The translations under genes and the position numbers were made by a program. A DNA stretch of 22,211 nt from a virus, in the IMG/VR virus record IMGVR_UViG_3300027733_000224, positions 1-22,211 of that record; one strand, 5' to 3'. Position 1 is the first letter of the stretch. Each line of letters opens with the position of its first letter. The notes under the pieces are model-generated. The model saw nothing but the letters and a program-made list of their open reading frames with translations, made no database searches and was not told the DNA's origin. Below, piece after piece: positions 6,004 through 19,837 of the stretch.

Positions 6004-6040
6004 GCCGCTGATTTCGCTTAAACGTGGCGAATGTCAATTT
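6004..6040 (-). promoter_or_regulatory. TTGACATTCGC element, copy 5
   Basis: Core TTGACATTCGC at 6037-6027 on the minus strand. The upstream gene stops at the TGA inside it (6036-6034). A dyad follows: TTCGC, nine bases, GCGAA. The ATG at 6003 begins 34 nt after the first T. The tail GCGAAATCAGCGGCATG closely matches copy 2. It reads like a -35 box, but no TATAAT-like -10 lies 17 nt on. Confidence 0.55.
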
Positions 6041-6243
6041 TTTGGATAGTTCCTAGCGTCGTCGCAGCAGCCGGAAATCGGAGCGAGCGATGATGGATGA
6101 GTGTTTTCGATTTTTGTGAAGAAATCCTTGGCTGACTCTGGGTTGTTTTCGTTTCCAGCAATACAGGCTCGGCAATTTCTAGGTAACGGCTTTCCACCGT
6201 GGTAACCAAGATTGCATCCATTTTGTAAGTATTTACAGTTCAT
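6034..6243 (-). CDS. Small cysteine-rich protein
   Basis: A 69-aa protein with six cysteines: C3 and C10 near the N-terminus (MNCKYLQNGC), C24 and C27 (NCRAC is at 23-27), and the pair CC at 59-60 (ISGCCDD). The spacing could bind zinc or form disulfides, but no known finger fits. It fills the space between two tail genes, starts 6 nt after the upstream stop, and its stop codon sits in the TTGACATTCGC element. Two other minus-strand frames are open here; this one is chosen for its position and cysteine pattern. Function unknown. Confidence 0.5.
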   Translation of the reverse strand: MNCKYLQNGCNLGYHGGKPLPRNCRACIAGNENNPESAKDFFTKIENTHPSSLAPISGCCDDARNYPKN

Positions 6244-6249
6244 ACTTAA

Positions 6250-6753
6250 TTAAGTTTCAAAATACGCTCCATTTCCTTGATCTGTCGAATAAACCGTGAT
6301 CAGAGCGACTGGCGTTGACGCACATCCATTTTGAGTTCCCGGCGAAATTGTTTGTGTCACCGTTACTCCTTTGTATGTAATTATCAATTGACAGTATCCA
6401 CTACCGTGTCTTGGAGAAAACCATCCAGCGTAACACTCTATGTTGTAACTTGTCGTCCACAATCCCGCAGTTCTAGCTGCATCAACTCTGACGTTTATTC
6501 TTTCAAAACCATTTTGGCTTTGGTCATCTTTTGGCCCGCTACTGCCGGGCAACCATCGAACATACAATCCGCTATCTCCGCAATTGTATCCAACTTGTTC
6601 TCCAAAAGCCGTTGTGTTGGTGTCTAGGTCATACATCCCTGTGCCGCCCCAGTCGTATTTGATCTCCAATTCAGTTGCATAATTGCAGCAAGTGCAACTA
6701 GGCAATCCACCTCTAGTCACTACTTTACCCGATAATGTTTTTATTATGGCCAT
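6250..6753 (-). CDS. Putative tail-associated protein, cysteine-containing
   Basis: A 167-aa protein starting MAIIKTLSGKVVTRGG. The longer ORF to 6861 is rejected because that extension lies within the end of the 354-aa gene; the ATG at 6753 comes 1 nt after that gene's TAG. Near the N-terminus is PSCTCCNYA (residues about 18-26). The remainder is strand-rich with aromatic residues and further single cysteines, for example GYNCGDSGLYVRWLPG and YNIECYAGWFSP, suggesting an Ig- or jelly-roll-like fold. No family recognised. Position among tail-tip genes is the only hint of role. Confidence 0.6.
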   Translation of the reverse strand: MAIIKTLSGKVVTRGGLPSCTCCNYATELEIKYDWGGTGMYDLDTNTTAFGEQVGYNCGDSGLYVRWLPGSSGPKDDQSQNGFERINVRVDAARTAGLWTTSYNIECYAGWFSPRHGSGYCQLIITYKGVTVTQTISPGTQNGCASTPVALITVYSTDQGNGAYFET

Positions 6754-6754
6754 T

Positions 6755-7819
6755 CTAATCGCATTCCGAAGTTTGCAGCCATACTGGAATCGTTCCATTA
6801 TGACCAAGCACATGAGTTCCACTTCCTGGATTTGATAAAATAACCCAATCGGTCCCATCATTGTAAAGCATGTCGCCTTGGTATCCGTCTCTTATTTTGA
6901 CTTCCACAACTGATGCGGTCGCAGTAACGTCAAGTCCATTGCCGGATTTGATCGCCTTGATTTTTACGCTGTTATCAGCAAGGGCGGAAAGGTCTTTGAC
7001 TAATGCTTCTATCTTGTAAGTTGATGGAGACGCATTTTCAAGCATCCTCATTTTAACCGTCAGATCTCCTTCATTGCTAAGCTCTTTAATCAAAGGAACA
7101 ATCCCCGTGCTAGTCGGAGAGGCATTTTGAAGAGTTCGCAATTGATGCAATGAGTTTTGCTTATCAAATCCAAAATAAAGTGGAATTTTTTCACCAATGT
7201 TTTTGATACGATCAATCTGATTGGGAAAATGCTTATCACCTGTCCATCGACGTATGACTTTTGGAGCGGGAGGATCGCTTCCTTCCGCCTCTTCAAACTC
7301 TGCAAGCAGCCAATAGTATACGCCGTCTATGGGGGTTTGATTGTAATCAACGGACTCAGGCACATGATGAGTGCTTTTTTTCTTTTCTGTTTCAAATACA
7401 ATAGTCGGAGCATCAGTTGGAACACCACGATCATCGGTTTCCGATTTCATGTAAAGATACCCAGTTGGTTGAGTGATTTCAACTTTAGGAATTTCCGCAG
7501 GAGGTTGGACGTCAATTTCTATATCGTTAATCGTTGGCGTCATGTAATACAACGAACCATCAGTTTCTGGGTCGTTAAGAAGTTGCTGGTATGTTAAATA
7601 GCCAGGGGAAACAGTTACTTTCCAAGCCCCTTCGTTGTAAAATGGATTTGAAACCCAAAGGTTCGGTTTTGTGTCTGGTAAAAACTGATTAGAAGAAGTT
7701 TCAAATTGCCTCATGGTCAACCGCTGGATGCAGTCGATCAACTGGTTATACATCAACGCCGTAAATGGCTGGCCAGAATTGGCCCGTCGGGGAATAATAA
7801 TTGGAATAGCTGATTTCAT
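6755..7819 (-). CDS. Tail-tip protein with short internal repeats
   Basis: A 354-aa protein. The N-terminus MKSAIPIIIPRRANSGQPFT leads into a mostly beta central region. Residues about 225-290 carry a roughly 30-residue tandem repeat: QLRTLQNASP (226-235) and IVPLIKELS (240-248) recur as KMRMLENASP (256-265) and IEALVKDLS (270-278), then a partial VKIKAIKSG. The C-terminus (DGYQGDMLYNDGTDWVILSN, then NGTIPVWLQTSECD) resembles ends of other phage surface proteins. The start at 7819 lies 2 nt after the stop of the previous gene. Structural role near the tail tip is inferred from location and composition; no enzymatic motif seen. Confidence 0.6.
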   Translation of the reverse strand: MKSAIPIIIPRRANSGQPFTALMYNQLIDCIQRLTMRQFETSSNQFLPDTKPNLWVSNPFYNEGAWKVTVSPGYLTYQQLLNDPETDGSLYYMTPTINDIEIDVQPPAEIPKVEITQPTGYLYMKSETDDRGVPTDAPTIVFETEKKKSTHHVPESVDYNQTPIDGVYYWLLAEFEEAEGSDPPAPKVIRRWTGDKHFPNQIDRIKNIGEKIPLYFGFDKQNSLHQLRTLQNASPTSTGIVPLIKELSNEGDLTVKMRMLENASPSTYKIEALVKDLSALADNSVKIKAIKSGNGLDVTATASVVEVKIRDGYQGDMLYNDGTDWVILSNPGSGTHVLGHNGTIPVWLQTSECD

Positions 7820-7821
7820 TA

Positions 7822-8664
7822 TTATGGCTTTTTATAAAGATCAGCATCCCATGCCTCACCTTGAGGAGAAAGCTGCCAAGTCTTCGACCACGTTTTGACA
7901 GTATTGATTCCGCTTTTTGTCCGATTTTCAGATGCTCCGTTAAATAGCCAGTTCCGTGTGGTAAATGACGGTGGATCTCCATCTGGTTCTGAAATATATC
8001 CCAATGCGCTCAAGTCCTCACCAGAAATTCCTTCTTTCGTGTTGGCAGTCTTTGACCATTCAACGGCTGAGGCTTGGTAAGTCTTAATGCCTTTTTCAAA
8101 GATGAGCTTATACCACTTGATTGCAGTGTCAGTATAAAGAGTTTCAATATCTAATCCTGTATTGTTATCAATGATTGTAATTGCTCCAGACTTTTTTGGA
8201 AATGGGTCGATTCTAGCAGTTCCAGCAATCAATGCTGCCATTGCTTTTATTTCATTTCCAGATGTATCTTTAATCAGTGTCGGATGACTCATTAGATCCT
8301 TTTCCGTAAGATTGGCATTGAGCGAATATGAAACCTCTGTTTTCTCATCGCCAAACTCAAAAGACTCTGCCGCGATACCTCCATAATCTACCAATACCTT
8401 TGTCATTCCTCCCGGCTGATGCTCATGACGGGCATTTTGGACGGTAAGGAAACTCCACTCGTTGCTAAGATCTGGATAAATAGTAGTAACTGGAGTTCCG
8501 CGAACCAGTTTTGATTGAATTGCTGCGCCAGAGAAATCGAACTTCCGACAGGTGAATGTTTGAGAACCAGTCCACTTTCCTGTCTCATCACATCCTGCCG
8601 AGAAATCAGGACCAGGTCGAAGCTCGTTTGCTGTTAATCCGAAAACGATTGATTGGCTGCTCAT
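7822..8664 (-). CDS. Putative distal tail protein after tape measure
   Basis: A 280-aa protein whose ATG overlaps the tape-measure stop as ATGA, the position usually held by distal tail or minor tail proteins. The sequence is beta-rich with an early cysteine pair region (FSAGCDETGKWTGSQTFTC) and a central block VKVLVDY-like strand (TKVLVDYGGIAAESFEFGD). The C-terminal part (TFTTRNWLFNGASENRTKSG preceded by EPDGDPPS) is polar and ends WDADLYKKP. I do not recognise a family. The role is inferred from position only. Confidence 0.6.
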   Translation of the reverse strand: MSSQSIVFGLTANELRPGPDFSAGCDETGKWTGSQTFTCRKFDFSGAAIQSKLVRGTPVTTIYPDLSNEWSFLTVQNARHEHQPGGMTKVLVDYGGIAAESFEFGDEKTEVSYSLNANLTEKDLMSHPTLIKDTSGNEIKAMAALIAGTARIDPFPKKSGAITIIDNNTGLDIETLYTDTAIKWYKLIFEKGIKTYQASAVEWSKTANTKEGISGEDLSALGYISEPDGDPPSFTTRNWLFNGASENRTKSGINTVKTWSKTWQLSPQGEAWDADLYKKP

Positions 8665-9752
8665 CCTAAAATTGCGATTGGGTTTTTATAGTAGATGCGC
8701 TGAAGAATATCGGTCTGTGCTTTTGTCTCATCGAGAAGCGGCGCTCCATTGTTCATGCCAGTAGACTTATCTCCTCCAAATCCGAATACTCCTTTGATCA
8801 TATCTTCTACGCCCAGCGACTTCATGATGCCTCTGCCAATAGACTTGCCAATCGACTGAAACGTCTCATCAAGAAACTTAGCCATTCCGATTTTGCGGAT
8901 AGTATCAACAATATCATTGAAGTCTTGAATCATAGGTTGAACTATTTCGCCGAGTGTCTTGAAAGCTGGAGCGAGCTGTTGGGCAATACTTGCCAAGTTG
9001 TCAACCATGCTCGTCCCGTTGTTCATGGATTCGCCAAACGCCCCTTCCATAAACGACTCTGCCAGCAGCATCTTGACCGCTTCAAATCGACCCAGCATCC
9101 GGTCGCCCATGTTGTCCATCGCGGCGAGCGTGATTGAGCTGGTGTTCGCCAAATCCCCGAGAACGTCGCGGGCCTCTGATAGTGCTTTTGGAAGGTCTTG
9201 AAAGATGCGTAGAACCTTATATCCAGCTTTCCCTCCAAAGATCGTGGTGGAAATATCCTCCATTTGTCCCGGCGCGAGCTTGGACTTCATCTCATCCATC
9301 GCATTCATGATTTTATTCATTCGTGCGATAGGGTCCATACCCTGAAAGCTGCCAGAGTTAAGACCAATTCCTCTCAGTGCATCTTGCATTGCCTGATCAC
9401 CGTGACCAGCCGCATAGAGGTTTTTTTGCATCGTTCCGAGCATCTTTCCAGCATCCACCGACTCCATGCCGGCCATTTTGAATGCTTGCCCGAGTGCCAT
9501 CAAATCGTCGGTCGTCGCTCCGGTCTGAGTTGAAAGGTCAACAAGCTCTCCAGCCCAGTCCATCGTTTGCATTGCCGCCTCTGGAAGCATAGTTATTACC
9601 TTGCCGAGAAGGTCGGTCATTCCAGCTCCGATTTGACGCGCCCCGCCAATGGCGACCTGCTTGCCAAATCCTTTCATCATGCCACCAAGTCCAGACAATC
9701 CTTTTTTTACGGATGCGCCATCGAAGCCAAGTTTGAAAGTTGTTCCTACCAT
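8661..9752 (-). CDS. Tape measure protein (short)
   Basis: A 363-aa protein in tape-measure position between the G/GT chaperone genes and tail-tip genes. The N-terminus (MVGTTFKLGFDGASVKKGL) and the Gly/Met-rich amphipathic helices that follow (GGARQIGAGMTDLLGKVITM, then DWAGELVDLSTQTGATTDDL) match the N-terminal domain of phage tape measures, with long helical stretches thereafter and MIKGVFGFGG near the end. At about 0.15 nm per residue, the usual rule, the tail would be near 55 nm, short for a siphophage. It overlaps the end of the frameshifted chaperone by 7 nt. Confidence 0.85.
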   Translation of the reverse strand: MVGTTFKLGFDGASVKKGLSGLGGMMKGFGKQVAIGGARQIGAGMTDLLGKVITMLPEAAMQTMDWAGELVDLSTQTGATTDDLMALGQAFKMAGMESVDAGKMLGTMQKNLYAAGHGDQAMQDALRGIGLNSGSFQGMDPIARMNKIMNAMDEMKSKLAPGQMEDISTTIFGGKAGYKVLRIFQDLPKALSEARDVLGDLANTSSITLAAMDNMGDRMLGRFEAVKMLLAESFMEGAFGESMNNGTSMVDNLASIAQQLAPAFKTLGEIVQPMIQDFNDIVDTIRKIGMAKFLDETFQSIGKSIGRGIMKSLGVEDMIKGVFGFGGDKSTGMNNGAPLLDETKAQTDILQRIYYKNPIAILG

Positions 9753-10344
9753 AAGTCAGGGAGTTCGTGAGTTGCGAGTTGTTCAAATTCCGCCAGTAGT
9801 TCCGGCGATGGGTCGAAGAAGTTCCGCCATTGAAAGCGTGTGCCGTTCCGCATCGCGTCGGCGTGAATGAGTTGCAGCACTTCCGACAAGCAAGTGTCGT
9901 AAAGCAAGGCATCCGGCGCGATCCCCATGCGGAGCGCGAAGAGTTTGATTTGCGCTAGGAAGCATGGGCTAGCGCATCCTCCTTTCCCGGCGACTCGCTT
10001 TCCACCATTGCGGCACGGATGGATTCAAGTCGCTCTTGGACGCCAGCGGACGCAACCGAAAACTCATCCTCGGTTTCGAGCATAAAGGAAACGATCTTCG
10101 CTTTACGCTCTTCCGGTGTGTCTTTTCTGAGTTGCTGGATCTCTTCCGGTGTTGCCGAACCGATCAGCAGAAGTTCGCCCATTGCTTCGACCGTTGATTG
10201 CTCAGTATTGCTTGAATCGAAAAGCGAGTTGCGCCAGCTTTCGAGGATCGAATATCGGATGGGTGAAAGCATGACGGCTTTGCCTCCGATTTCAAGCTGC
10301 GGCCCTGTCCATACTTTTGATAAGAGGTCTTCGCGTTTATTCAT
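9746..10344 (-). CDS. Tail assembly chaperone GT, -1 frameshift product
   Basis: Slippage at GGGAAAG (9988-9982) moves ribosomes from the G frame to the -1 frame, which stays open to 9746. It adds 78 residues to the first 121: after the slip the frame reads GGCASPCFLAQIKLFALRMG and continues into a T-like domain with SEVLQLIHADAMRNGTRFQW and ends HELPDLW. In lambda the G and GT proteins coat the tape measure during tail assembly, and the ratio is set by slippage at the same heptamer. The T domain has no convincing independent start; the ATG at 9928 lies inside the domain. A product of about 199 aa is predicted; efficiency is unknown. Confidence 0.75.
9955..10344 (-). CDS. Tail assembly chaperone G-like protein
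   Basis: A 129-aa protein, MNKREDLLSKVWTGPQLEIG..., in the position of lambda gpG between the tail tube region and the tape measure. It is helical and acidic in its second half (TPEEIQQLRKDTPEERKAKI), typical of these chaperones. It has one of the few Shine-Dalgarno-like sequences here, AAGGA about nine bases before the ATG. Its last codons contain the slippery site used to make the longer GT form. Function is inferred from synteny and the frameshift. Confidence 0.75.
   Translation of the reverse strand: MNKREDLLSKVWTGPQLEIGGKAVMLSPIRYSILESWRNSLFDSSNTEQSTVEAMGELLLIGSATPEEIQQLRKDTPEERKAKIVSFMLETEDEFSVASAGVQERLESIRAAMVESESPGKEDALAHAS
9982..9988 (-). promoter_or_regulatory. GGGAAAG -1 ribosomal frameshift site
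   Basis: In the G reading frame the codons are CCG GGA AAG (9990-9982), so the heptamer is G GGA AAG, a correct X XXY YYZ slip site and the same heptamer as in lambda G/GT. The -1 frame is open from here to 9746. AGGAGG overlaps and follows the site, rather than lying upstream as a dnaX-type stimulator would. Confidence 0.75.
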
Positions 10345-10349
10345 GTTAT

Positions 10350-10910
10350 TTATCCTTGGAGTCTTGAAAGAAGTTCATTGCGCTGCCACACTGGAAGCTG
10401 TGAGTCGATCAGCGCGGATGCCTCATCTCGGCGCATGAAGACAGCGCGGCGGGCGGCGTGGTAAAGGTTGAGGCAAACTGATCGGTTGGCGACGAACGCG
10501 AGAATGTAACTTTCTACTAGCGTTGGGAACTTGGTGACGAATGCGTCAATGTCCTCGATCCTGCGGAGTCCCGGCAAGGCGACTCCCTGCGCGGTGAGGT
10601 AGTCAACGGCGTGATCCAACCATTCACCTGCCGATAAACGTCCATCTGGCCGAGCTTTTATGAATGAACAAATCTTTGCAAACGGATGATCGTTGTGAAG
10701 TCCTTCAGAATTTCCCCAATACGCCATCAGCTTTTCAGTGATGTGCTTTCCATCGTTGCTTGAAGCTGAAAGTGAGAACGATGCGTAGGGTTTTGCTCCG
10801 TCATGCTCGATCACTCGAACAGGGCATTCCCGAACAAGCGGAATTGCGCATGCCATAATTGCCGCTGCTAGGTTGATATCCCCGGTCTGGATGTTGCTTT
10901 CTCCTTTCAT
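10350..10910 (-). CDS. Hypothetical protein between tail tube and chaperone genes
   Basis: A 186-aa protein, MKGESNIQTGDINLAAAIMA..., mostly helical. N-terminal half: IPLVRECPVRVIEHDG then KPYASFSLSASSNDG, which could be a small alpha/beta domain. The C-terminal half has repeated aromatic and basic helices (ESYILAFVANRSVCLNLYHA, then RRAVFMRRDEASALIDSQLP). No membrane span or catalytic motif. It sits 14 nt after the tail tube gene and 5 nt before G. Conserved lambda-type maps have no fixed gene at this position, so I assign no function. Confidence 0.6.
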   Translation of the reverse strand: MKGESNIQTGDINLAAAIMACAIPLVRECPVRVIEHDGAKPYASFSLSASSNDGKHITEKLMAYWGNSEGLHNDHPFAKICSFIKARPDGRLSAGEWLDHAVDYLTAQGVALPGLRRIEDIDAFVTKFPTLVESYILAFVANRSVCLNLYHAARRAVFMRRDEASALIDSQLPVWQRNELLSRLQG

Positions 10911-10924
10911 TGATTTTTACCTGA

Positions 10925-11353
10925 TTAAGTCAAGGTCGTTGGTGATCCAGCGGCGACGAACATATTGTAAATGCCGGTGAGTGATCCTGTTTCAAATCCA
11001 GTCGCCGTGCCGCTCGTTTCGCCTCCCGTAATAATGATTGCAGCTCCGGTAGCTGGCGTGCCGGTAAAGAACTCTGTCAATCGGGTGCGGCTGTTTTTGG
11101 TCGTGTTCAAAAGCGTAATTGTTGCTCCGACGCTACCGATCAGTCCAGTTCCCTTTGTGGCAACAATGCCGTCAAGCGTCACATCCTTTTTCTGATTGTA
11201 GACGGCAAATCCAACATCGCACCCAATATGATCCGGCGCGGTGGCTTGTTCAGAAGTCGCGGTAAAAGTAGCGGTGCCAGCGTAAAGACCGGAAGCGGCT
11301 GATTCGTCGGCAAGTCCGTATTGGGCTGTAGAGTAGACGGTGGCGAGTGACAT
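10925..11353 (-). CDS. Major tail tube protein candidate
   Basis: A 142-aa protein starting MSLATVYSTAQYGLADESAA; an ORF extension to 11386 would overlap the previous gene by 20 nt, so the ATG at 11353 is preferred. The sequence is beta-rich and low in charge, with YAGTATFTATSEQATAPDHI, GTKGTGLIGSVGATITLLN-like strands and a Gly/Thr-rich end. It lies after the tail terminator candidate and before the G/GT pair, the place of tail tube genes in lambda-like phages. A TTGACATTCGC element lies 108 nt upstream. The tube assignment rests on order, size and composition; no diagnostic motif seen. Confidence 0.55.
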   Translation of the reverse strand: MSLATVYSTAQYGLADESAASGLYAGTATFTATSEQATAPDHIGCDVGFAVYNQKKDVTLDGIVATKGTGLIGSVGATITLLNTTKNSRTRLTEFFTGTPATGAAIIITGGETSGTATGFETGSLTGIYNMFVAAGSPTTLT

Positions 11354-11366
11354 AGTGGTGGGAAAT

Positions 11367-11804
11367 TTACGCAATTGGAGCTGCAATGACGGTCAGTCCG
11401 AATCGAGTGATTCGCCGTCCTTCGTTTGGTTCCGTTGTCGGATTACCGGCGCGAATGTCAAACACTGCGAAACCGTTGCGACCATGCAGGTAGCTGATGC
11501 AATCTCGGTTTCCTAGGATGTTGAAAAGATCCCGGCGCATCGTTCGCTCGGTATCGGTTGGCGTGCCGGATTGGTCCTCGTCTACCGGGACGGTGTGAAG
11601 CTCAACCGCAATCTCGTAAGCGGAAACCCCGTGAAGGATTACGCCGCCTTGTTCGGTCGTGGTCGCGCCCGTTTCGTAGATGGCGAGGAACGGCGGTGTA
11701 AGGTCTTCATGCTCGCCCATCGTCACGACGGTCACGGGTGACAAGCTGAAGAACTCAGGCAACTTGAGGTTGACCCATTCGCGGATTGATTCGTTGAGGT
11801 TCAT
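11367..11804 (-). CDS. Tail terminator-like protein (gpU position)
   Basis: A 145-aa protein starting MNLNESIREWVNLKLPEFFS, ATGA-coupled to the 245-aa gene; the extension to 11849 is rejected. The alpha/beta pattern, with VAVELHTV-type central strands (SAYEIAVELHTVPVDEDQSG), a helix rich in Arg (TERTMRRDLFNILGNRDC) and a final strand RRITRFGLTVIAAPIA, matches the small minor tail or tail terminator family that caps the tube. The codons for FDIRAGNP contain one copy of the TTGACATTCGC element. Function is inferred from fold pattern and position. Confidence 0.6.
   Translation of the reverse strand: MNLNESIREWVNLKLPEFFSLSPVTVVTMGEHEDLTPPFLAIYETGATTTEQGGVILHGVSAYEIAVELHTVPVDEDQSGTPTDTERTMRRDLFNILGNRDCISYLHGRNGFAVFDIRAGNPTTEPNEGRRITRFGLTVIAAPIA
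11438..11464 (-). promoter_or_regulatory. TTGACATTCGC element, copy 4 (inside a gene)
   Basis: Core at 11461-11451, inside the tail terminator-like gene, where it encodes FDIRA. It shares TTTGACATTCGCGCC and AATCCGA with copy 2. No start codon follows within 40 nt; the tail tube ATG is 108 nt downstream. The dyad is weak (TCG and CGA only). It is the least certain of the five as a regulatory site. Confidence 0.35.
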
Positions 11805-12538
11805 GGCTTTTGCTTTTTGTCCTGCGCCCGCAAGGCGGATTGATACCATTTCACTGTTTTATTGAGTCCGAAGTTGATGGCCTTGGTCGTCGCCCCGGCT
11901 TTGACAACCCAGCTAGATGCGGTATGTTTAGCTGTGTTTGAGATTTGAGAGCTTGGCGTGAATGAGGATTGAGGCTTTGTCGCACGTCCGAAATGGGAGT
12001 GCTTTTGCGCGAATGACATGAAGTTTTTGCCAATTGTGATCTTTTCTGCTCCAGTTTGAAATCCAGAGAGAATCATCCCGGCCCCTAGCCACCCACCCTT
12101 GGCAATGTAGGCTTTTTTGAAGCGTGTCTTCATTGCCTTCTTGAATACTGCCTCGGTGCAAATCCTTCGTTCCGAAATTGGAAGGGTGACCGTCCGTTTG
12201 TTTTTTCGTGTTCTCTTTGAATCAATCCAAGAATTGACGGCTTCCGGTGAAGACAATCCCTTGTGGTCTTTGCCGATGCTTGGAACGATCAAAATGACCT
12301 TCAGAGCGTCCGCGACCATTGCTCCTTCTTGTTTGCCCTTGGCCCATGTGATGGCTCCTTGCTTGCCCTTGGCACCCATCTTTGACTTGCCAAAAACGGC
12401 AGTCTCGAAAGCCATTTCCCGGCAAGTCTGGACTCCCCATCGTGCGATTGCTTGAGCGTTAGTATCCCCGAACGCCTTTGCGTAGGTTTTCAGTGACCTC
12501 TCAAGCTTTGGCCGATCAAATGTCGCTTCGATCTTCAA
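11801..12538 (-). CDS. Minor tail / neck protein, basic
   Basis: A 245-aa strongly basic protein, MKIEATFDRPKLERSLKTYA..., with many Lys (KSKMGAKGKQGAITWAKGKQ; KRTRKNKRTVTLPISERR reversed in no way and seen around residues 105-125). The N-terminal pattern of a short strand, a KLERSLKTYAKAF helix and AIARWGVQTCREMAFETAV resembles HK97 gp10 or lambda Z-type tail completion proteins, but it is longer. Its ATG overlaps the previous stop (ATGA) and its own stop overlaps the next ATG. Role in joining head and tail is inferred from order. Confidence 0.55.
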   Translation of the reverse strand: MKIEATFDRPKLERSLKTYAKAFGDTNAQAIARWGVQTCREMAFETAVFGKSKMGAKGKQGAITWAKGKQEGAMVADALKVILIVPSIGKDHKGLSSPEAVNSWIDSKRTRKNKRTVTLPISERRICTEAVFKKAMKTRFKKAYIAKGGWLGAGMILSGFQTGAEKITIGKNFMSFAQKHSHFGRATKPQSSFTPSSQISNTAKHTASSWVVKAGATTKAINFGLNKTVKWYQSALRAQDKKQKP

Positions 12539-12846
12539 GCCTTTGTAACCTGGGTGAGTGTGATCGTCGTAAGCGTAGCACCTTTGCTGACCGAATCGAC
12601 GCGGAACGTCAGACTGCGGGCGGTCGCAGACTTCTTAAGAATGGTGGTCGCTGGGAGAGCGGAAGTCAGGCAAACGGCGGAAAGCGTCTTGCTGATCTCG
12701 TATCCGCCCTCTTGAAAATCGCTGCCGTCAGTGACCTCGTTTAGAACGCATGAAAGGGTAACTGTCCCGATCACTACGTCTTCCTGTCCGATCATCGGCG
12801 CGGCCTGAGCAAACATGGCCGTGGCGAACGCTGAAACTAAGCTCAT
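12535..12846 (-). CDS. Head-tail joining candidate, first gene of tail block
   Basis: A 103-aa protein, MSLVSAFATAMFAQAAPMIG, with a helix followed by strands (EDVVIGTVTLSCVLNEV, RSLTFRVDSVSKGATLTTI). The helix then a small beta-barrel pattern and size fit the lambda FII or neck-type head-tail joining proteins; family not confirmed. It is the first gene after the glycosyltransferase insert and starts 34 nt after the first T of element copy 3, a possible promoter for the tail genes. ATGA overlap with the next gene. Confidence 0.55.
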   Translation of the reverse strand: MSLVSAFATAMFAQAAPMIGQEDVVIGTVTLSCVLNEVTDGSDFQEGGYEISKTLSAVCLTSALPATTILKKSATARSLTFRVDSVSKGATLTTITLTQVTKA

Positions 12847-12884
12847 GCGTTCGGTATCGCCTAGCCGGGGCGAATGTCAAAACT
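12847..12884 (-). promoter_or_regulatory. TTGACATTCGC element, copy 3
   Basis: Core at 12880-12870. The glycosyltransferase stop TGA (12879-12877) lies inside it. The dyad TCGCC, seven bases, GGCGA follows, and the next ATG is 34 nt after the first T. Placed between the sugar-modification insert and the first tail gene, it could restart transcription after the capsid terminator. Confidence 0.55.
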
Positions 12885-13437
12885 CGGGAGCTGCGGTCGT
12901 CATTGCGTCGTGTGTGTAGTAGTGGAGAACCTTGTCAACGTGGAAGCCCGTCTTGATGCGCTGGCGAGCTTGCTGGCACCAAATCAGATCTTCACCGTAG
13001 TTTGATTCCCCAAACTGGCACCCAGCGACCTTGAGACGGCTCCACGCGCAGACGTGCCACGGTGCTCGAAGAGTAACCCCTCCCGGTGTGAATTGTCCGT
13101 CCTGATTGTTCAGCCCGAAATCTACCTCGGATTCCAGCCCGTTGTAAATTGCTCGCTGCCGGAAGGTGATCACGTCCGCTCCGATTTCGATGGCTGCAAG
13201 GAGGCTTGAAATGTAGTCGTCCGAAATATCGTCATCGTCGTCAACGAACGCGATATATTGGCCGCGCGCAATGTCAGCCAGTGCTTGCCGTTTTGATCCT
13301 ATTGTCCTGCGTCGATTGTCGCAGAAGCAAAGATGCTCGACCGGCAAATCACCGATCTGGCTTGAGAGCTTGCTTTGTAGTTGGGCAAGTTGGATTTCCC
13401 GGCCTGGAATCGTTGGTGTTAGGATGCTGAGTTTCAT
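12877..13437 (-). CDS. Family 2 glycosyltransferase
   Basis: A 186-aa protein with a GT-A nucleotide-sugar fold: the N-terminal strand MKLSILTPTIPGRE, RRRTIGSKRQALADIARGQY (residues 42-61) positioning the donor, then YIAFVDDDDDIS with the metal-binding DxD acids at 66-70, and NYGEDLIW at 146-153 as the usual GED/ED motif before the catalytic helix. It would transfer a sugar from a nucleotide donor in the cytoplasm. It is shorter than most full family members, and the acceptor is unknown. Its stop falls inside element copy 3. With the larger fused protein upstream it forms a two-gene sugar-modification insert in the structural module. Confidence 0.85.
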   Translation of the reverse strand: MKLSILTPTIPGREIQLAQLQSKLSSQIGDLPVEHLCFCDNRRRTIGSKRQALADIARGQYIAFVDDDDDISDDYISSLLAAIEIGADVITFRQRAIYNGLESEVDFGLNNQDGQFTPGGVTLRAPWHVCAWSRLKVAGCQFGESNYGEDLIWCQQARQRIKTGFHVDKVLHYYTHDAMTTAAPEF

Positions 13438-13534
13438 GGTCTTTCTTTTTGAAAATTAGGTCAAAGTTTTCGCGGCCCTGTTTGCTCATGGCCTTGCTTT
13501 GCATTCGATCTCCAGTAATTGGATTGCGATTCAT
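13349..13534 (-). CDS. Small ORF overlapping the glycosyltransferase, uncertain
   Basis: 61 codons, MNRNPITGDRMQSKAMSKQG..., starting ATGA-coupled to the stop of the large fused protein and running 89 nt into the next gene in another frame. The first 30 residues are basic and look plausible; the overlapped part is Pro/Asn/Thr rich and may be meaningless. A run of eight A's (13541-13534) sits just before, so -1 slippage would fuse it to the C-terminus of the upstream protein. It also fills the 93-nt space between the two sugar genes. Confidence 0.35.
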   Translation of the reverse strand: MNRNPITGDRMQSKAMSKQGRENFDLIFKKKDHETQHPNTNDSRPGNPTCPTTKQALKPDR

Positions 13535-15723
13535 TTTTTTTCGTTAGTTGCGATCCAGCATCGTCCTAGCGTTTTGTAGTTGATATTAAGATCGGATAAT
13601 GCTCGACTCACCCCGTCGCTGTCAATGTCGTGTCCCGCGAAGATTCCGCCAGCTTTGATTTTAGGTAGCCATGATTTGATGTCGGCCTTGGCTGATTCGT
13701 AATTGTGAGCTGCGTCGATAAACACGGCAGAAAAATGACCGTCTGGAAAAAGCGATGCAGCGGTAGTTGAATCGCATTCGACCACGTTCACCATATCAGC
13801 GATCTTCGCGGCGCGAAGGTTCTCGTCAAACTCTTTGCGGATGGATTCCAACCCGGTTTCAGCATCGCCTTGAAAGCTGTCAACCGCCGTTATCTTGACT
13901 GACTTCCCAAGGTCTTGAATCCGCTGCGCCAAGTGGACCAGTGATTTACCTTTCCACGATCCGACCTCTGCAAAGTAATCACCATCGTTGAGCGATTGAG
14001 CGATCAACGCATAGGTATCGCGGAAGTCGAACCATCCTGGAATGTCTGATGCGGTCTTGATCCCGGCGCGGAGTCTGTTTGCCATTCCATCGCCAGTTTG
14101 GTAATGATATCCTGCATTGGATCGCGCATAGGTTTCATCCATTTCAGCCTTACCAAATGCCGGATGCAAATGCTCAAAAATGATTTTGTCTCGGGCATCA
14201 ATTACAATGCCGTTTTCAAATGCTCGCTCGCTAAACCAGTTATCCGAGTGCATTGAAAAGAACTCAGGGTGAAACATGTAGCCCTGTTGCTTGTAGCGAG
14301 CGCGGGTTAGAATCGCCATGCAAAGCAGGTTATCGGTTCGATGGCCGTCGCTGACAGCAAGAACGGCGGGTTTCGATGCGTCTCCAATCGCATCAAGGAT
14401 CAGCTTGTCCCAGTGCATCGGCGGGTCGAAATCGTCCGACATTTGGACAAGAATCTGTCCTTTGGACTTAGCGGCAGCGGCGTTCCATGCTGCGACCGGA
14501 CCGTCATTACCGGCAACAAGAGCATGATTGTGAATGGCAAGGAATACGCCTGAAGGATCGGATGCATCCAGCCCAAAGATGTGCTCAATCGCATCAGGAT
14601 TTGCCGCCCGATTTAGCCAAGTCTGCCGCGCTTTGACTGCCTGAGGAACACGACCACGGGTGGCATGGAGAAGTGAGATTTTTGCGCCGGATCGGATAAA
14701 ATGGTTTGTCTCTATAGCGTCAGCCTCTGATTGATAGCCATTGACGCGCAGGGCCATGCCGTGAAGCGATTCCCCGAGGTAGCCGTAGTATTTACTCCTT
14801 AGGTTCCATTCAGCATCAGATGGGCGCGGAATCGACCGCATGGCCCGAGTGTAGGCAAGAGCATCTTCCGGTCTAGCAAGAGCGACCATGCAGTTTGCGA
14901 GTTCGCCGTATGCCTCGCGCCTGGATGGGTCGGTAGCAAGAGCTTGCAGCATCATTTGTGACCGCTGAGACGGATCCTGCGTAAGTTGTCCCGCCGCAAT
15001 GAAAAGCTCATACTTTTCCGCCGTTCCAATGTCCTCGGGAGCGTCGCGGAGGATGTTGCAAACCTCGGTCATCGCGTCTTCCATCCGGCCAACGGCGCGG
15101 AGGGACTGGAAAAGGTGGAATCGGTGCGAACCGGTGCGGTCTTCGGATGGGATGCTTTCGAGGATGCGTAGGTTCCTCTCGTTGTTCTCAGAGCGCGGTC
15201 CGCTCGGCATGTGAAGGATGTGCGCGTTTGTGATCCGCGCAAGCTGCGGCTCGGCATGAAAAGCCAGATGTTCATGGATTGGCGAACGCCAGGTTGCTGT
15301 TCCTTTTCGGATAATCCGTTCCCGAAATACGGTCAGGCCGTCCTCTGGCACATTGTAGGGGATTTCCAGCCCGACGCAATCATTCGGCATCCGCTCGATA
15401 GCATCACGGATGGCCGCGATTGATTCCGGCGAAATAACGTCGTCGGTGTCTGCCCACATGATTAGGTCGTGAGACGCGAGAGAAAATGACTGATTTCGAG
15501 CGGCAGCGAAGTCGTCAACATGCGGCCATTCCTGCATGAAGTTCCGGTATTCGGATACTCGGCAACCTCGATCCTCTGCGATCTGCAATGTCTGATCCGG
15601 CTCCTGGTTGCCGATTGCTCTTACAACGATGATCTCGTCGGCTAGCGGTTCAAACGAATCCAGAAATCGACTTATATATTTTTCGACGTTTCCGGCAATG
15701 ATGCAAAGGCTCAGTTTTTTCAT
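13531..15723 (-). CDS. Glycosyltransferase-glycosyltransferase-like-methyltransferase fusion
   Basis: A 730-aa protein starting MKKLSLCIIAGN; upstream ATG at 15780 is rejected because that stretch contains the capsid terminator. Residues 1-150 are a family 2 glycosyltransferase: DEIIVVRAIGN, ARNQSFSLA, MWADTDDVISP (about 89-99, metal-binding DTDD) and the HEHLAF motif near 150. Residues about 185-340 are helical and TPR-like. Residues about 347-555 form a second sugar-transferase-like region (ISLLHATRGRVPQAVKAR; LVQMSDDFDPP near 426-436). Residues about 560-730 are a class I SAM methyltransferase with EVGSWKGKS (586-594), ITAVDSFQGD, FIDAAHNY and FAGHDID. The likely job is to build and methylate a glycan; the acceptor is unknown. 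It lies right after the capsid gene. Confidence 0.85.
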   Translation of the reverse strand: MKKLSLCIIAGNVEKYISRFLDSFEPLADEIIVVRAIGNQEPDQTLQIAEDRGCRVSEYRNFMQEWPHVDDFAAARNQSFSLASHDLIMWADTDDVISPESIAAIRDAIERMPNDCVGLEIPYNVPEDGLTVFRERIIRKGTATWRSPIHEHLAFHAEPQLARITNAHILHMPSGPRSENNERNLRILESIPSEDRTGSHRFHLFQSLRAVGRMEDAMTEVCNILRDAPEDIGTAEKYELFIAAGQLTQDPSQRSQMMLQALATDPSRREAYGELANCMVALARPEDALAYTRAMRSIPRPSDAEWNLRSKYYGYLGESLHGMALRVNGYQSEADAIETNHFIRSGAKISLLHATRGRVPQAVKARQTWLNRAANPDAIEHIFGLDASDPSGVFLAIHNHALVAGNDGPVAAWNAAAAKSKGQILVQMSDDFDPPMHWDKLILDAIGDASKPAVLAVSDGHRTDNLLCMAILTRARYKQQGYMFHPEFFSMHSDNWFSERAFENGIVIDARDKIIFEHLHPAFGKAEMDETYARSNAGYHYQTGDGMANRLRAGIKTASDIPGWFDFRDTYALIAQSLNDGDYFAEVGSWKGKSLVHLAQRIQDLGKSVKITAVDSFQGDAETGLESIRKEFDENLRAAKIADMVNVVECDSTTAASLFPDGHFSAVFIDAAHNYESAKADIKSWLPKIKAGGIFAGHDIDSDGVSRALSDLNINYKTLGRCWIATNEKK

Positions 15724-15739
15724 TTTTTCTTTTACGCCC

Positions 15740-15770
15740 AAAAAGCCCCACCCCGTTTCCGAGGTGAGGC
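15740..15770 (-). terminator. Intrinsic terminator after major capsid gene
   Basis: On the minus strand an 11-bp stem, GCCTCACCTCG and CGGGGTGGGGC with two G-U pairs and otherwise Watson-Crick, closes a GAAA tetraloop, followed by five T's. It lies 26 nt past the capsid stop (15796). This is the only strong intrinsic terminator I see in the window. It should limit read-through from the highly expressed head genes into the glycosyltransferase genes. Confidence 0.85.
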
Positions 15771-15795
15771 GATTGAGCAACCAACCGAAACAAAA

Positions 15796-16692
15796 TCAGG
15801 TCGTTGGAGTCGTGAAGAGCTTCATGGCTCCAGTGACAGCGGTGGAGTAACCGTAGAGGCAGTGCAGGTTTGCAAAATACTTGCCCTGTGCGCGGCTCCA
15901 GTGGCGAGTGTAGAGAGCACTGATTCCGGTCTCGTCGTCAACCATCTGCTCGACTGCTTCGTAATCTCCCGCTGGGAGGTAGTTGCCGAGATCGCGCATG
16001 GCAAAGGCGATAGATTCTTGTCCGCAAGCAAATCCGGTAAGGGAAATGCTATTGGATGGAAGAACGTCGCTCATGTAGGTCTGAAGACCAAAGAGCATCC
16101 CAAGGTCGCCATTCTTGATCGCGGTATTGTCGCCACGGTTAAGAGCATTGACGATGTTGGTATCACCAAGAAGAGCACCTTCAATCACGGAGTTTCCGAG
16201 GAACGAATAGTTGCCACGGACACCGGCGATCTTCAATTGGCGTCGAGCCTCGATGAGCTGAGTGCGAGTGTAGTTTGCCGAAGCCGTGGTGATTACAGCG
16301 GCACCGAAGTTGGTTGTGGTAAGCAAAGACCAGATGTCGGTAAGAACAGCTTGCGCCATACTCTTTCCGAGTTGGTTTGCCCACTTGTCCCAACGTCCAG
16401 CGTTAGAGCTTTCAGCTAACTGCTGGAGAGTGAGGTCAATCGGGGTGATCTTGCGCTTGTCAAGAGTGACGGTGATTGCGGAAAGCGTTCCGCCGGTTTG
16501 CTCCATCACTGAAGTCGACTGCGTGAAGGTCGTGGTGGTAATATTTCCGAAGAGCGGAACAACGACTGCCGAACCCTCGCTTTTTACTTCCGAGCTAATG
16601 TCGGTTGAAAAGGCATTGATCGGAGTGAGAAGATCGATGAGAGCTTGAAAAGCAGTCTGACCGAAAAGGGTGTCATTAAATACTGTAGCCAT
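15796..16692 (-). CDS. Major capsid protein
   Basis: A 298-aa protein, MATVFNDTLFGQTAFQALID..., with the shape of HK97/P22-fold coat proteins: an N-terminal helical arm, then strands (EGSAVVVPLFGNITTTTFTQ), a long spine helix (GKSMAQAVLTDIWSLLTTT), the P-domain helix RTQLIEARRQLKIAGVRGNY, then YSFLGNSVIEGALLGDTNIV and LFGLQTYMSDVLP, and the C-terminal FACGQESIAFAMRDLG and KYFANLHCLYG strands. It follows the protease/scaffold gene, as in lambda. There is no Shine-Dalgarno sequence before the ATG (ACTACCACCATGG). A strong terminator follows. No separate decoration gene (lambda D) lies between scaffold and capsid. Confidence 0.85.
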   Translation of the reverse strand: MATVFNDTLFGQTAFQALIDLLTPINAFSTDISSEVKSEGSAVVVPLFGNITTTTFTQSTSVMEQTGGTLSAITVTLDKRKITPIDLTLQQLAESSNAGRWDKWANQLGKSMAQAVLTDIWSLLTTTNFGAAVITTASANYTRTQLIEARRQLKIAGVRGNYSFLGNSVIEGALLGDTNIVNALNRGDNTAIKNGDLGMLFGLQTYMSDVLPSNSISLTGFACGQESIAFAMRDLGNYLPAGDYEAVEQMVDDETGISALYTRHWSRAQGKYFANLHCLYGYSTAVTGAMKLFTTPTT

Positions 16693-16716
16693 GGTGGTAG
16701 TTGTTTAGATGTAGAG

Positions 16717-17160
16717 TTAAATGGAGAAAGATGCGCGGATTGCCTTTGCGTTAGCTTTCCAGTAGGATCGCTTTTCGTTTGGAGGTAAGGCATTCATAAT
16801 TGCAATGTGATCGACCGGAACCGACTCATTGTCAATTGCAAGTGGGGTATTTTGGCCGATTCCGGCGAGAGCTTCGACGACTGCGGCAGGGACGCTTCCC
16901 TTGGCGGTTTCAAGTTCAGCTTTGACGGTGACGAGTTCAGCGGTGATTGCGGCGGCGGATTCCTTGGCGGCGATGAACTCAGCGGTGATCGTGGCGAGTT
17001 CCGCATCCTTTTCCGCAACAATGGCGGATAGGCCAGAAACCTCGGTAATCTTCGCTTGTGCGTCGGCAAGTTCGGCGCGGAGTTGATCGTTCTCAGCAAT
17101 CTGAGCCTCAAGTTTTGCAACCTGGTCGTTGCCTGGAAAGAGAGCGGAAAGGAGTGACAT
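16717..17160 (-). CDS. Internal in-frame scaffold protein (Nu3-like), predicted
   Basis: In-frame start at residue 203 of the protease gene (MSLLSALFPGNDQVAKLEAQ) would give a 147-aa protein. It is a long Ala/Glu/Lys coiled coil (residues about 10-108, e.g. IAENDQLRAELADAQAKITE) followed by a short C-terminal domain ending PPNEKRSYWKANAKAIRASFSI, which fits a scaffold that binds coat protein. Lambda C/Nu3 uses the same nested design. TTGACATTCGC element copy 2 ends right at this ATG, supporting separate expression. No Shine-Dalgarno sequence is seen. Confidence 0.6.
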   Translation of the reverse strand: MSLLSALFPGNDQVAKLEAQIAENDQLRAELADAQAKITEVSGLSAIVAEKDAELATITAEFIAAKESAAAITAELVTVKAELETAKGSVPAAVVEALAGIGQNTPLAIDNESVPVDHIAIMNALPPNEKRSYWKANAKAIRASFSI

Positions 17161-17766
17161 GGCCGCTGGTTTCGGATTTGTGGCGCGAATGTCAAATATC
17201 GAATTTGCAAAGCCATTCTCGACTGCTTGAGCTGCGGTCATCCAAGTCTCAACCTTCATCATTTCGCGGATATTTTCGACTGGCATGCCTGTTCGATTTG
17301 AATAAATTACAGCAATATCTGTAGAAATTCCGTCAAGTAAATCTGCCGCAGCTCGGAGCTGATCGGCATTTCCTTTAACTGTATTCGATGCCTCATGGAT
17401 CATCATGCGAGCATGTGGAACCATGCGGACCTCATCGCAAGCCATGCAGATAACGCTCGCCATCGAAGCCGCCATGCCTGTAACGGTCGCTGTGACAACA
17501 ACGCCGCGCTCTTGAAGTGACTTGATCTCGTTGTAGATGTTGTAGCCGTCGAAGATGCTGCCTCCCGGTGAATTGATCTCCAGTTCCAGCGTATCTACGG
17601 CATTTTCAGCACAATTTGTTATTGTGCCAAAGTCGGCTCCGTTGGCAAATGCCGATGCACCAAATAGTTTACCGATTTCCTCTGTCAGCTTTTCGACCGA
17701 CCATGGCGTGACGGCATCGGTCAGTTTTACTTTGCCTGACTTGTTTTCAATCTTGAGAAGTTCCAT
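16717..17766 (-). CDS. ClpP-like prohead protease with fused scaffold domain
   Basis: A 349-aa protein starting MELLKIENKSGKVKL, 4 nt after the portal stop; the extension to 17877 lies inside the portal gene and is rejected. The N-terminal 195 residues match S49/ClpP-like phage proteases: ELEINSPGGSIFDG (61-74, oxyanion region), TGMAASMASVICMACDE with nucleophile S101, and PHARMMIHEAS with catalytic H124. Residues about 213-310 are a long coiled coil (KLEAQIAENDQLRAELADAQ) typical of scaffolds. This enzyme would mature the prohead by cutting portal and scaffold. See the internal start at 17160 for the scaffold form. Confidence 0.85.
   Translation of the reverse strand: MELLKIENKSGKVKLTDAVTPWSVEKLTEEIGKLFGASAFANGADFGTITNCAENAVDTLELEINSPGGSIFDGYNIYNEIKSLQERGVVVTATVTGMAASMASVICMACDEVRMVPHARMMIHEASNTVKGNADQLRAAADLLDGISTDIAVIYSNRTGMPVENIREMMKVETWMTAAQAVENGFANSIFDIRATNPKPAAMSLLSALFPGNDQVAKLEAQIAENDQLRAELADAQAKITEVSGLSAIVAEKDAELATITAEFIAAKESAAAITAELVTVKAELETAKGSVPAAVVEALAGIGQNTPLAIDNESVPVDHIAIMNALPPNEKRSYWKANAKAIRASFSI
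17161..17200 (-). promoter_or_regulatory. TTGACATTCGC element, copy 2 (inside protease gene)
   Basis: Core at 17195-17185, in codons for FDIRATNP. It shares 16 identical bases with copy 1 (GATATTTGACATTCGC) and the tail CGAAACCAGCGGCCATG resembles copy 5. The internal scaffold ATG is 35 nt after the first T. Its position before a nested start suggests function, not just coding constraint. Confidence 0.5.
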
Positions 17767-17770
17767 TTGA

Positions 17771-19519
17771 TTATTGTTCCATTGGTGGTAATGGCTTCCC
17801 GAATCCGCCCGGTGCTGCCCCGCCTGATGGCGCAAGCGTGATCGGACGACGGGAGCCTTTGTCTTCTTTCCATGCACCCTTGACGGCTGGAGTCATAGCG
17901 GGAAGTCCCGCTTCTTTTCTAAATTCAAATTCATCTTCATCCGACGGGGTGATTGCTCCAGCACGGACAGCGACACCGTAAGCGTCAAACTTGGCTTTGA
18001 GATTATCGAACTTCATGCGCTCGCCACCACCCGATAAGTCTATTGGATCTCCATTTTCGTCAACCTGTTGAGCCGATTCAACTGGTGCCACTTCGTTCGG
18101 TGTAAGCATAAACATTTCACGTTCCTCGATTTCGATTGGAACGCCATATTTTGCAGACGCTTCTTCTGATACAATCGCCGCGATTGCCTTACGGTTAGCG
18201 ACGGACCATGCGCGAGTCATTAGGAATTGATGCTCGGTCAGTCCTCGAGCCTCAAGAACTTCCGAAAGGTTACGCGAACCCGTGCGAAGCTCCTCAAGCT
18301 CCATCTTGGATTCACGTCCATCGTCAACCGAAAGGCGCGGCGGGCGAGAGAAGTCCCATGCCGTTGGATTTTGGAGAACCGGAACTCGGCCCTGATCAGC
18401 GAAGATCGAATAGGCCCATGAGACAGCACGTTTCGCAGCATACCAGAGTTGACCCTGCCGCTTCGTGACGAAGCGGCGACACTTCATAATCTCAGCTCGG
18501 GCATCGGTGCCTTGTCCAGTTCCCATCCAGACGGTATATGACCAGACTGGAATGATCGCATCTTTCATAAGCCGATTCTGGAAAGACTCCCAAACGTCTC
18601 CAGGATTTTCATGCTTCATCTGCTCGATCCGTTCCCCGTTCGCCATGTAAGACACCCCGCCTGGGAATGCCTTGGTGTAAAGCTCGTTGGCCTCGCCATT
18701 GCTGTTGACGGAAAGAGAGCTGAGCGGGTCATCAAGATCCGGCCCGCCAGCTTCGTTGAAGATCGTCAGGTGAAGCCGGGAAATAATCTGCTGGCGGATG
18801 CGCTCATCCTCGGTCGAGAACAGCGACATTTTCAAGGACTCCAGAGCGTGAGTAAATGCTGGAAGTCCGCGCCCCTGTTCGCAGTGAGTGGGATCGAAAA
18901 GATGAATAATGTCGGCGGCTGGTATGTCCTTGATCGACTCCTTGCCGTCTTTGCCCATATTAAACCGATATGCGGCGGGTCGTCCACCGGAGTAATAAAT
19001 CACGCCATCGCTGATCCTGTAACCAGCCCATGGTCCATCTGTCACGGTGTTTCCAGATCCCGAGTAGCAGCGATGCGACGGGATTAACTGAATTCTCGGG
19101 AAATTGTCCGCTCCTTTAATGAGCATCCAGAAGCAGTCTCCATCCCGGTCAATCGCAACTGACGAAAGCTCAAGTAGCTTCCACCAATCAAAGATTCCGC
19201 CTCGGGTGTCACATTGCGGATACCAGAAATCAGCTAGGAATTTTGAGACGGGTTTTCCGGCATCATGGTCGTCACCAGTGTAGGACGGAAGCCAAGCCTC
19301 GCCGACTGAGTAATCCGCCTTTTGCAGAACACAGGCTTTCGGCACTCCCATGTTCGTGAAAAGCCGATTTGACAAGGAGGAAAGCGTCCTGCGATCATTC
19401 GCTGGAATCAGACGTTCTATGTCATCATTCCGAACCGAGAACTGAGGACCACGGCGGGATGAACGATCAGCGGCGTGCGCGAACGTGAAGGGTTGACCGA
19501 ACTCGTTTACGATTGCCAT
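17771..19519 (-). CDS. Portal protein (lambda family)
   Basis: A 582-aa protein of the lambda gpB/HK97-like portal family, forming the dodecameric ring through which DNA enters and leaves the capsid. Visible blocks include SNRLFTNMGVPKACVLQKAD near residue 50, DRDGDCFWMLI with the usual WML strand, RIQLIPSHRCYSGSG, ADIIHLFDPTHCEQGRGLPA (a portal hallmark), the wing/stem helices KMSLFSTEDERIRQQIISRL, and KDAIIPVWSYTVWMGTGQGTDARAEIMKC (split here at positions about 318-346), then FVTKRQGQLWYAAKRAVSWA. The C-terminus is Gly/Pro-rich (GGAAPGGFGKPLPPMEQ). Start is 3 nt after the gpW-like gene stop. Length is near that of lambda B. Confidence 0.9.
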   Translation of the reverse strand: MAIVNEFGQPFTFAHAADRSSRRGPQFSVRNDDIERLIPANDRRTLSSLSNRLFTNMGVPKACVLQKADYSVGEAWLPSYTGDDHDAGKPVSKFLADFWYPQCDTRGGIFDWWKLLELSSVAIDRDGDCFWMLIKGADNFPRIQLIPSHRCYSGSGNTVTDGPWAGYRISDGVIYYSGGRPAAYRFNMGKDGKESIKDIPAADIIHLFDPTHCEQGRGLPAFTHALESLKMSLFSTEDERIRQQIISRLHLTIFNEAGGPDLDDPLSSLSVNSNGEANELYTKAFPGGVSYMANGERIEQMKHENPGDVWESFQNRLMKDAIIPVWSYTVWMGTGQGTDARAEIMKCRRFVTKRQGQLWYAAKRAVSWAYSIFADQGRVPVLQNPTAWDFSRPPRLSVDDGRESKMELEELRTGSRNLSEVLEARGLTEHQFLMTRAWSVANRKAIAAIVSEEASAKYGVPIEIEEREMFMLTPNEVAPVESAQQVDENGDPIDLSGGGERMKFDNLKAKFDAYGVAVRAGAITPSDEDEFEFRKEAGLPAMTPAVKGAWKEDKGSRRPITLAPSGGAAPGGFGKPLPPMEQ

Positions 19520-19522
19520 GGG

Positions 19523-19807
19523 TCAGAATGTCGTGAGTTGCGTTGTCGAGATTGGCCCGCCTTGGTCAATGCAGCCGACAACCCAGCGCAGCAGCGTAAG
19601 GCGTTGACCGTTCGTCATCGCGGATTGAGCAGTGAACATCTGACCATTGACGGTTGCGCTTGTAATCCGCGCCGATGCGTTTGGGTCTGTTGCAATCAAC
19701 AACGCAAGCGACGCAAATTCAGTGCGTATTGCCGCGCATGATGCAGCGTCGTCCTTTATCGCGGCATAAATAGTGTTTCCAGTGCTGGCAATGCTCACAC
19801 GTCCCAT
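19523..19807 (-). CDS. gpW-position head-tail connector
   Basis: A 94-aa protein, MGRVSIASTGNTIYAAIKDD..., between large terminase and portal, the position of lambda W. It has an N-terminal helical segment and a ARITSATVNGQMFTAQ strand pair followed by a final helix GQRLTLLRWVVGCIDQ, like the helix-beta-hairpin-helix of gpW, though longer. The gpW-type protein plugs the connector after DNA packaging. Preceded by element copy 1, whose hairpin abuts the ATG. Family call is by position and pattern. Confidence 0.6.
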   Translation of the reverse strand: MGRVSIASTGNTIYAAIKDDAASCAAIRTEFASLALLIATDPNASARITSATVNGQMFTAQSAMTNGQRLTLLRWVVGCIDQGGPISTTQLTTF

Positions 19808-19837
19808 TTCGCCTTACGGTGGCGAATGTCAAATATC
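19808..19837 (-). promoter_or_regulatory. TTGACATTCGC element, copy 1, with hairpin
   Basis: Core at 19832-19822, using the terminase stop TGA (19831-19829). It makes a perfect hairpin, TTCGCC, seven bases, GGCGAA, whose 3' arm touches the ATG at 19807. TAAGG in the loop/3' arm would be the Shine-Dalgarno-like part, so folding could hide it. The first T is 25 nt before the ATG. Confidence 0.55.

Follow-up and report, generated by a model that had tools for sequence, protein, structure and literature searches.

Leaderless mRNAs have been described for the middle and late genes of the Thermus phage phiYS40 (PMC3594737). The phage analyzed here is likewise a tailed phage in which many later genes would be expressed from leaderless mRNAs; phage and host are others, and leaderlessness is reported as a fact for phiYS40 and predicted here. 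In Deinococcus-Thermus, leaderless genes carry a −10 box that adjoins the ORF (PMC12340547), so that, as is predicted for the present case, the promoter core abuts the start codon. However, the genes in question are cellular and their −10 is strong, whereas the locus described below combines a strong −35 and a near-bare −10 with phage structural genes. In cluster K mycobacteriophages, finally, SAS/ESAS, a repeat containing AGGAG, occupies the position of the ribosome-binding site (PMC3203893). It resembles the present element in being a short repeat at a fixed distance before many phage genes, but the latter lies 23–24 nt upstream and has neither an AGGAG- or Shine-Dalgarno-like core nor a long inverted repeat. 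Classification as a SAS-like element was rejected, as both AGGAG and the ribosome-binding-site position are lacking.

The DNA under study is a 22.2-kb IMG/VR fragment, which in its full length is referred to as the window. Its minus strand encodes terminase, portal (lambda family), head protease, capsid, glycosyltransferase, and tail genes. The closest isolate is Verrucomicrobia phage P8625, with 20% (terminase), 25% (capsid), and 27% (portal) identity. As P8625 is the nearest isolate, the host is likely a member of the Verrucomicrobiota. Relatives residing as prophages were not found in two scans of genome collections (one for the capsid, one by portal alignment), nor did an integrase search among plasmids yield any; the host assignment is therefore based on P8625 only. 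The genome of one relative, G019, has a gene for an integrase-like protein (PHROG 1; L154, 3318–4439), so at least some members of the group may be temperate. Between the capsid and neck genes of the window (12877–15780) lie a gene for a fusion of a glycosyltransferase and a methyltransferase (749 aa) and a second glycosyltransferase gene; both are missing from some relatives, for example, G019 and G037. The head protease gene (16717–17877) contains a nested, in-frame, scaffold-like product that begins at ATG 17160 and has its own promoter-like element, which recalls the C/Nu3 arrangement of lambda.

The minus strand of the window contains the 11-mer TTGACATTCGC in five exact copies, beginning at 19832, 17195, 12880, 11461, and 6037, and the plus strand contains none, exactly as an earlier reading of the sequence alone had claimed. 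Dinucleotide shuffles of the window (n = 100) contained 0.09 copies on average and 1 at most, five being reached in 0 of 100. Although the chance expectation of 0.01 given by the sequence-only reading was slightly low, its conclusion stands: the five-copy repeat is not due to chance. Four of the copies precede a start codon, as had also been noted; the distance is shorter than the 25–35 nt initially given, the 11-mer being separated by 23, 24, 23, and 23 nt from the start codon, which thus begins 24–25 nt past the element. The fourth copy lacks a start codon at this fixed distance. A CGA recurs after TTGACA in all five copies, always beginning at base 22, that is, after a gap of 15 bases and not 17, and copies 2 and 5 do share the tail CGAAAyCAGCGG(C)CATG. 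Among the matches listed in a search of the published literature, appearances of the 11-mer seem unrelated, judging by title. The features of the five sites, with the first T of TTGACATTCGC numbered as base 1, are as follows.

19822..19832, minus strand: putative extended −35 element of site 1, an exact match to TTGACATTCGC; the site is conserved ahead of the gpW-like gene in the majority of relatives, and its TGA doubles as the stop of the terminase large subunit gene
19809, minus strand: A at base 24 (= −11) of site 1; an A in 34/35 non-redundant base-35-start sites
19798, minus strand: predicted +1 of site 1, the G of the GTG of the gpW-like gene (19523–19798), base 35
17185..17195, minus strand: putative extended −35 element of site 2, within the head protease gene (16717–17877)
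17160..17161, minus strand: predicted +1 of site 2 (base 35/36), with ATG 17160 of the nested scaffold-like product (16717–17160)
12870..12880, minus strand: putative extended −35 element of site 3; its TGA ends the glycosyltransferase gene 12877–13437
12846, minus strand: predicted +1 of site 3, the A of the ATG of the 103-aa putative neck gene (12535–12846), base 35
11451..11461, minus strand: site 4, the internal copy in gene 11367–11849, covering codons TTT GAC ATT CGC (FDIR)
11427, minus strand: predicted +1 of site 4, ∼74 nt 5′ of ATG 11353, with Y34/R35 and A24
10925–11353, minus strand: gene following site 4, putative major tail protein, start codon ATG 11353
6027..6037, minus strand: putative extended −35 element of site 5; its TGA closes the upstream ORF 6034–6243
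6003, minus strand: predicted +1 of site 5, the A of the ATG of the 280-aa tail gene (5161–6003), base 35

The fold prediction for the putative major tail protein was of low confidence (pLDDT 46) and gave no useful match, which renders this name provisional. For the gpW-like gene, the most likely start is GTG 19798 and not ATG 19807, because the N-termini of its relatives align at the former.

Portal-based searches for relatives yielded 36 and then 80 related loci, many of them common to both sets; in most, the early regions are incomplete. Absence of the motif from the corresponding junctions of related phages had been named by the sequence-only reading as evidence against its proposal; instead, IMG/VR relatives with 41–91% identical portals have the 11-mer, or a word close to it, at these junctions, while their flanks have diverged. 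As the flanks differ widely, the shared motif is not explained by a recent common origin of the entire region. Where the junctions were readable, the conserved sites were those of the gpW-like gene, the nested scaffold (with its ATG at base 36), the putative neck gene, the internal copy, and the tail gene. The element of site 5 is also found before tail-region genes in G019, G028, G037, G007, and G024, and as a variant in G016. Portal-anchored records contained up to five exact copies of TTGACATTCGC, all on the coding strand and none on the opposite one, and one-base variants, for example, TTGACTTTCGC, occupy equivalent sites in relatives. TTGACATTCGC is missing from one relative (L149/G033; portal 48% identical), which counts against the proposal. 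The same relative has a terminator-like hairpin immediately 5′ of its neck gene.

The geometry of the sites is strict. The start codon is found at base 35 (gpW-like, neck, and tail genes) or 36 (nested scaffold), and of the 58 distinct exact 11-mers of the relatives, 42 have ATG or GTG at offset 34 or 35, as against 0–8 at any other offset. Among the 35 non-redundant sites with a base-35 start, base 24 is an A in 34 (p ∼1e-20 from column composition, ignoring kinship) and base 34 is a pyrimidine in all 35, compared with 54% before other genes. This pyrimidine is followed by a purine at base 35, both in the start-adjacent sites (35/35) and in the internal ones (15/15), whereas the remaining spacer positions are mostly near-free in the 35-site logos. 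As the relatives are not independent, binomial p-values overstate the case and are only indicative.

In sigma-70 promoters, an A at −11 is the key base of the −10 element, and C/T followed by A/G constitutes a normal transcription initiator. All five copies contain the −35 hexamer TTGACA, and equating A24 with −11 results in a spacer of 16 bp, which is within the 16–18 bp range of sigma-70. A TATAAT-like −10 hexamer is lacking in the window lineage, which retains no more of it than the −11 A, and we therefore refrain from calling the element a canonical sigma-70 promoter; the initial observation that the window has no normal −10 box was correct, and a standard sigma-70 scan detected none of its five sites. 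In an AT-rich relative, −10-like sequences (TATAAC or TAAAAA) are present at bases 23–28. The logos contain no conserved purine-rich block resembling a Shine-Dalgarno sequence ahead of the start codon, as expected for leaderless mRNAs. GTG, which site 1 frequently uses, is less usual as the start codon of a leaderless mRNA and counts against this reading.

We consider it very likely that the five copies act as late promoters in a tailed phage with a probable Verrucomicrobiota host, and that its structural genes are probably expressed without leaders. TTGACATTCGC would serve as an extended −35 element, followed ∼16 bp further by an almost bare −10, of which only the −11 A is near-invariant, and transcription would start at the pyrimidine/purine step, at base 35. 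At four sites, +1 would coincide with the start codon within one base, which predicts leaderless mRNAs for the gpW-like, scaffold, neck, and tail genes. At site 4, the promoter would overlap the 3′-terminal part of the preceding gene and provide the putative major tail gene with a leader of ∼74 nt. Transcription start, leaderlessness, and host are what we infer from the sequences, as is the timing, called late because the genes served are structural. The element would represent an unusual phage late promoter, with a strong extended −35, a minimal −10, and the start codon as +1. The late-promoter proposal of the sequence-only reading has gained support from conservation at the junctions, fixed start spacing, the −11 A, and the initiator, and further from the frozen codons of the internal copy and from replacement words of the same geometry elsewhere (see below).

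TTGaCA is common to all lineages compared, and the elements downstream of it are lineage-specific: GCGAAAC in L197, GGCCACA in L203, GTTAGA/TCTAAC in L194 and L208, and GTATCC..TTATTGGATAC in P8625. Over bases 12–30, unrelated sites within a genome had a similarity of 0.47, whereas equivalent sites of different genomes had one of 0.32 (permutation p = 0.0002, six genomes). This within-genome sharing suggests that the element is read in trans by a factor that is not the same in every lineage. P8625 (NC_029047), the genome paper of which does not mention promoters (PMC4642752), is like the window in having TTGaCA-N17-TATTGG-N7-ATG at matching junctions (portal 27% identical), and differs from it by a recognizable −10 and the GTATCC/GGATAC element. 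Five such sites with a TATTGG-like hexamer are present, with the ATG at base 37 in 5/5, and a further, non-leaderless site precedes gp16. The annotated start of P8625 gp13, TTG 9620 (L153, NC_029047; 9620–9656), is the TTG of the putative −35 box; its true start is likely ATG 9656.

That the promoters are read by a polymerase or sigma factor encoded by the phage, and not by the main RNA polymerase of the host, is a sub-case of the promoter reading which we regard as unlikely. It would accommodate the near-invariant 11-base block with its minimal −10, as well as downstream elements that are specific for a lineage and change together within a genome. However, TTGACA is the ordinary −35 consensus, and no non-structural gene is common to all near-complete relatives. 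Furthermore, neither Sigma70 region 2 (Sigma70_r2; control positive in 10 genomes) nor single-subunit RNA polymerase (PF00940; control silent) had a match in 14 related records, many of them fragmentary. Pfam and PHROGs searches assigned the non-structural genes of one relative to the usual functions of replication, integration, and methylation and detected no sigma factor. A basic protein of 61–73 aa (KRGxYxRR...; L154, 11328–11549) is encoded 5′ of the terminase genes in only five near-complete relatives; devoid of a family match, it is a possible candidate for a late regulator. The wider notion that the whole phage group uses promoters fused to start codons, with a common −35 and a lineage-specific downstream element that is read by a diverging, putative phage factor, is advanced tentatively, as we deem it somewhat less probable than its opposite.

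Instead of a promoter, the 11-mer could be an RNA element within an mRNA leader, where it would aid initiation by the ribosome, or by a phage protein, 23–24 nt downstream. The strict spacing to the start codon and logos devoid of a Shine-Dalgarno-like signal agree with such a role. It is the internal copy that discriminates between the DNA and RNA readings, in favor of DNA: 15/15 internal sites keep Y34/R35 without a conserved start codon, and A24 is kept in 14/15, irrespective of whether the encoded residue is T, I, or N (F in the exception). The next gene starts 69–79 nt past the predicted +1 in 13/15 genomes measured; the start first selected in the remaining two was an in-frame one further upstream. 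The FDIR codons are frozen (TTT in 17/17 genomes, GAC in 17/17, ATT in 16/17, and CGC in 13/17), whereas most other conserved codons of the same gene are mixed across genomes; from codon usage alone, the four would be expected with a chance of ∼0.01–0.06 per genome. FDIR becomes FDNL (TTT GAC AAT CTA) in a lineage whose other promoters read TTGACAATCTA, and FDFR in one whose promoters read TTGACTTTCGC. Codon freezing, together with a protein change that follows the lineage, indicates that the DNA word, and not only the protein, is selected. The codons relax to TTC GAC.. or GAC ATC CGT in lineages that equip the following gene with a start-adjacent element of its own, which ties the function of the internal copy to that gene.

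Other observations also speak against an RNA element. Portal, capsid, and several other structural genes start without the motif, and no Rfam match was obtained. A hairpin from the TTCGC..GCGAA inverted repeat (window copies 1, 3, and 5) was considered and rejected, as it is not conserved among relatives: TTCGC/GCGAA pairs in only 14–34 of 35 sites per position, and the locus thus lacks a conserved hairpin of the type used by the N4 virion polymerase. The mRNA leader, an alternative already named in the sequence-only reading, is therefore disfavored, with the element predicted to lie upstream of +1, no conserved hairpin, and an internal copy without a start codon; we consider it highly improbable. 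Least credible of all are a recombination boundary between modules and an uptake-like host repeat carried by the phage, also raised initially, to which copies at gene borders, often containing the stop codon of the upstream gene, would conform, but not the fixed start-codon distance, the restriction to a single strand, codon freezing inside a gene, or the replacement, in other lineages, by unlike words that keep the geometry.

The late-promoter reading gives a large group of phages, almost none of them in culture, a late-transcription signal that can be put to the test; dozens of related viruses have the same layout. According to this reading, structural proteins would be made from leaderless mRNAs, the start codons of several genes are corrected, and a promoter constrains the protein sequence of the gene it overlaps. 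If the reading for the phage group as a whole is true, promoter words would co-evolve genome-wide and dictate amino acids in overlapped genes. As these words differ by lineage and yet are shared within a genome, they could reveal how a late transcription machinery changes its specificity, and P8625, together with its host, makes the system experimentally reachable.
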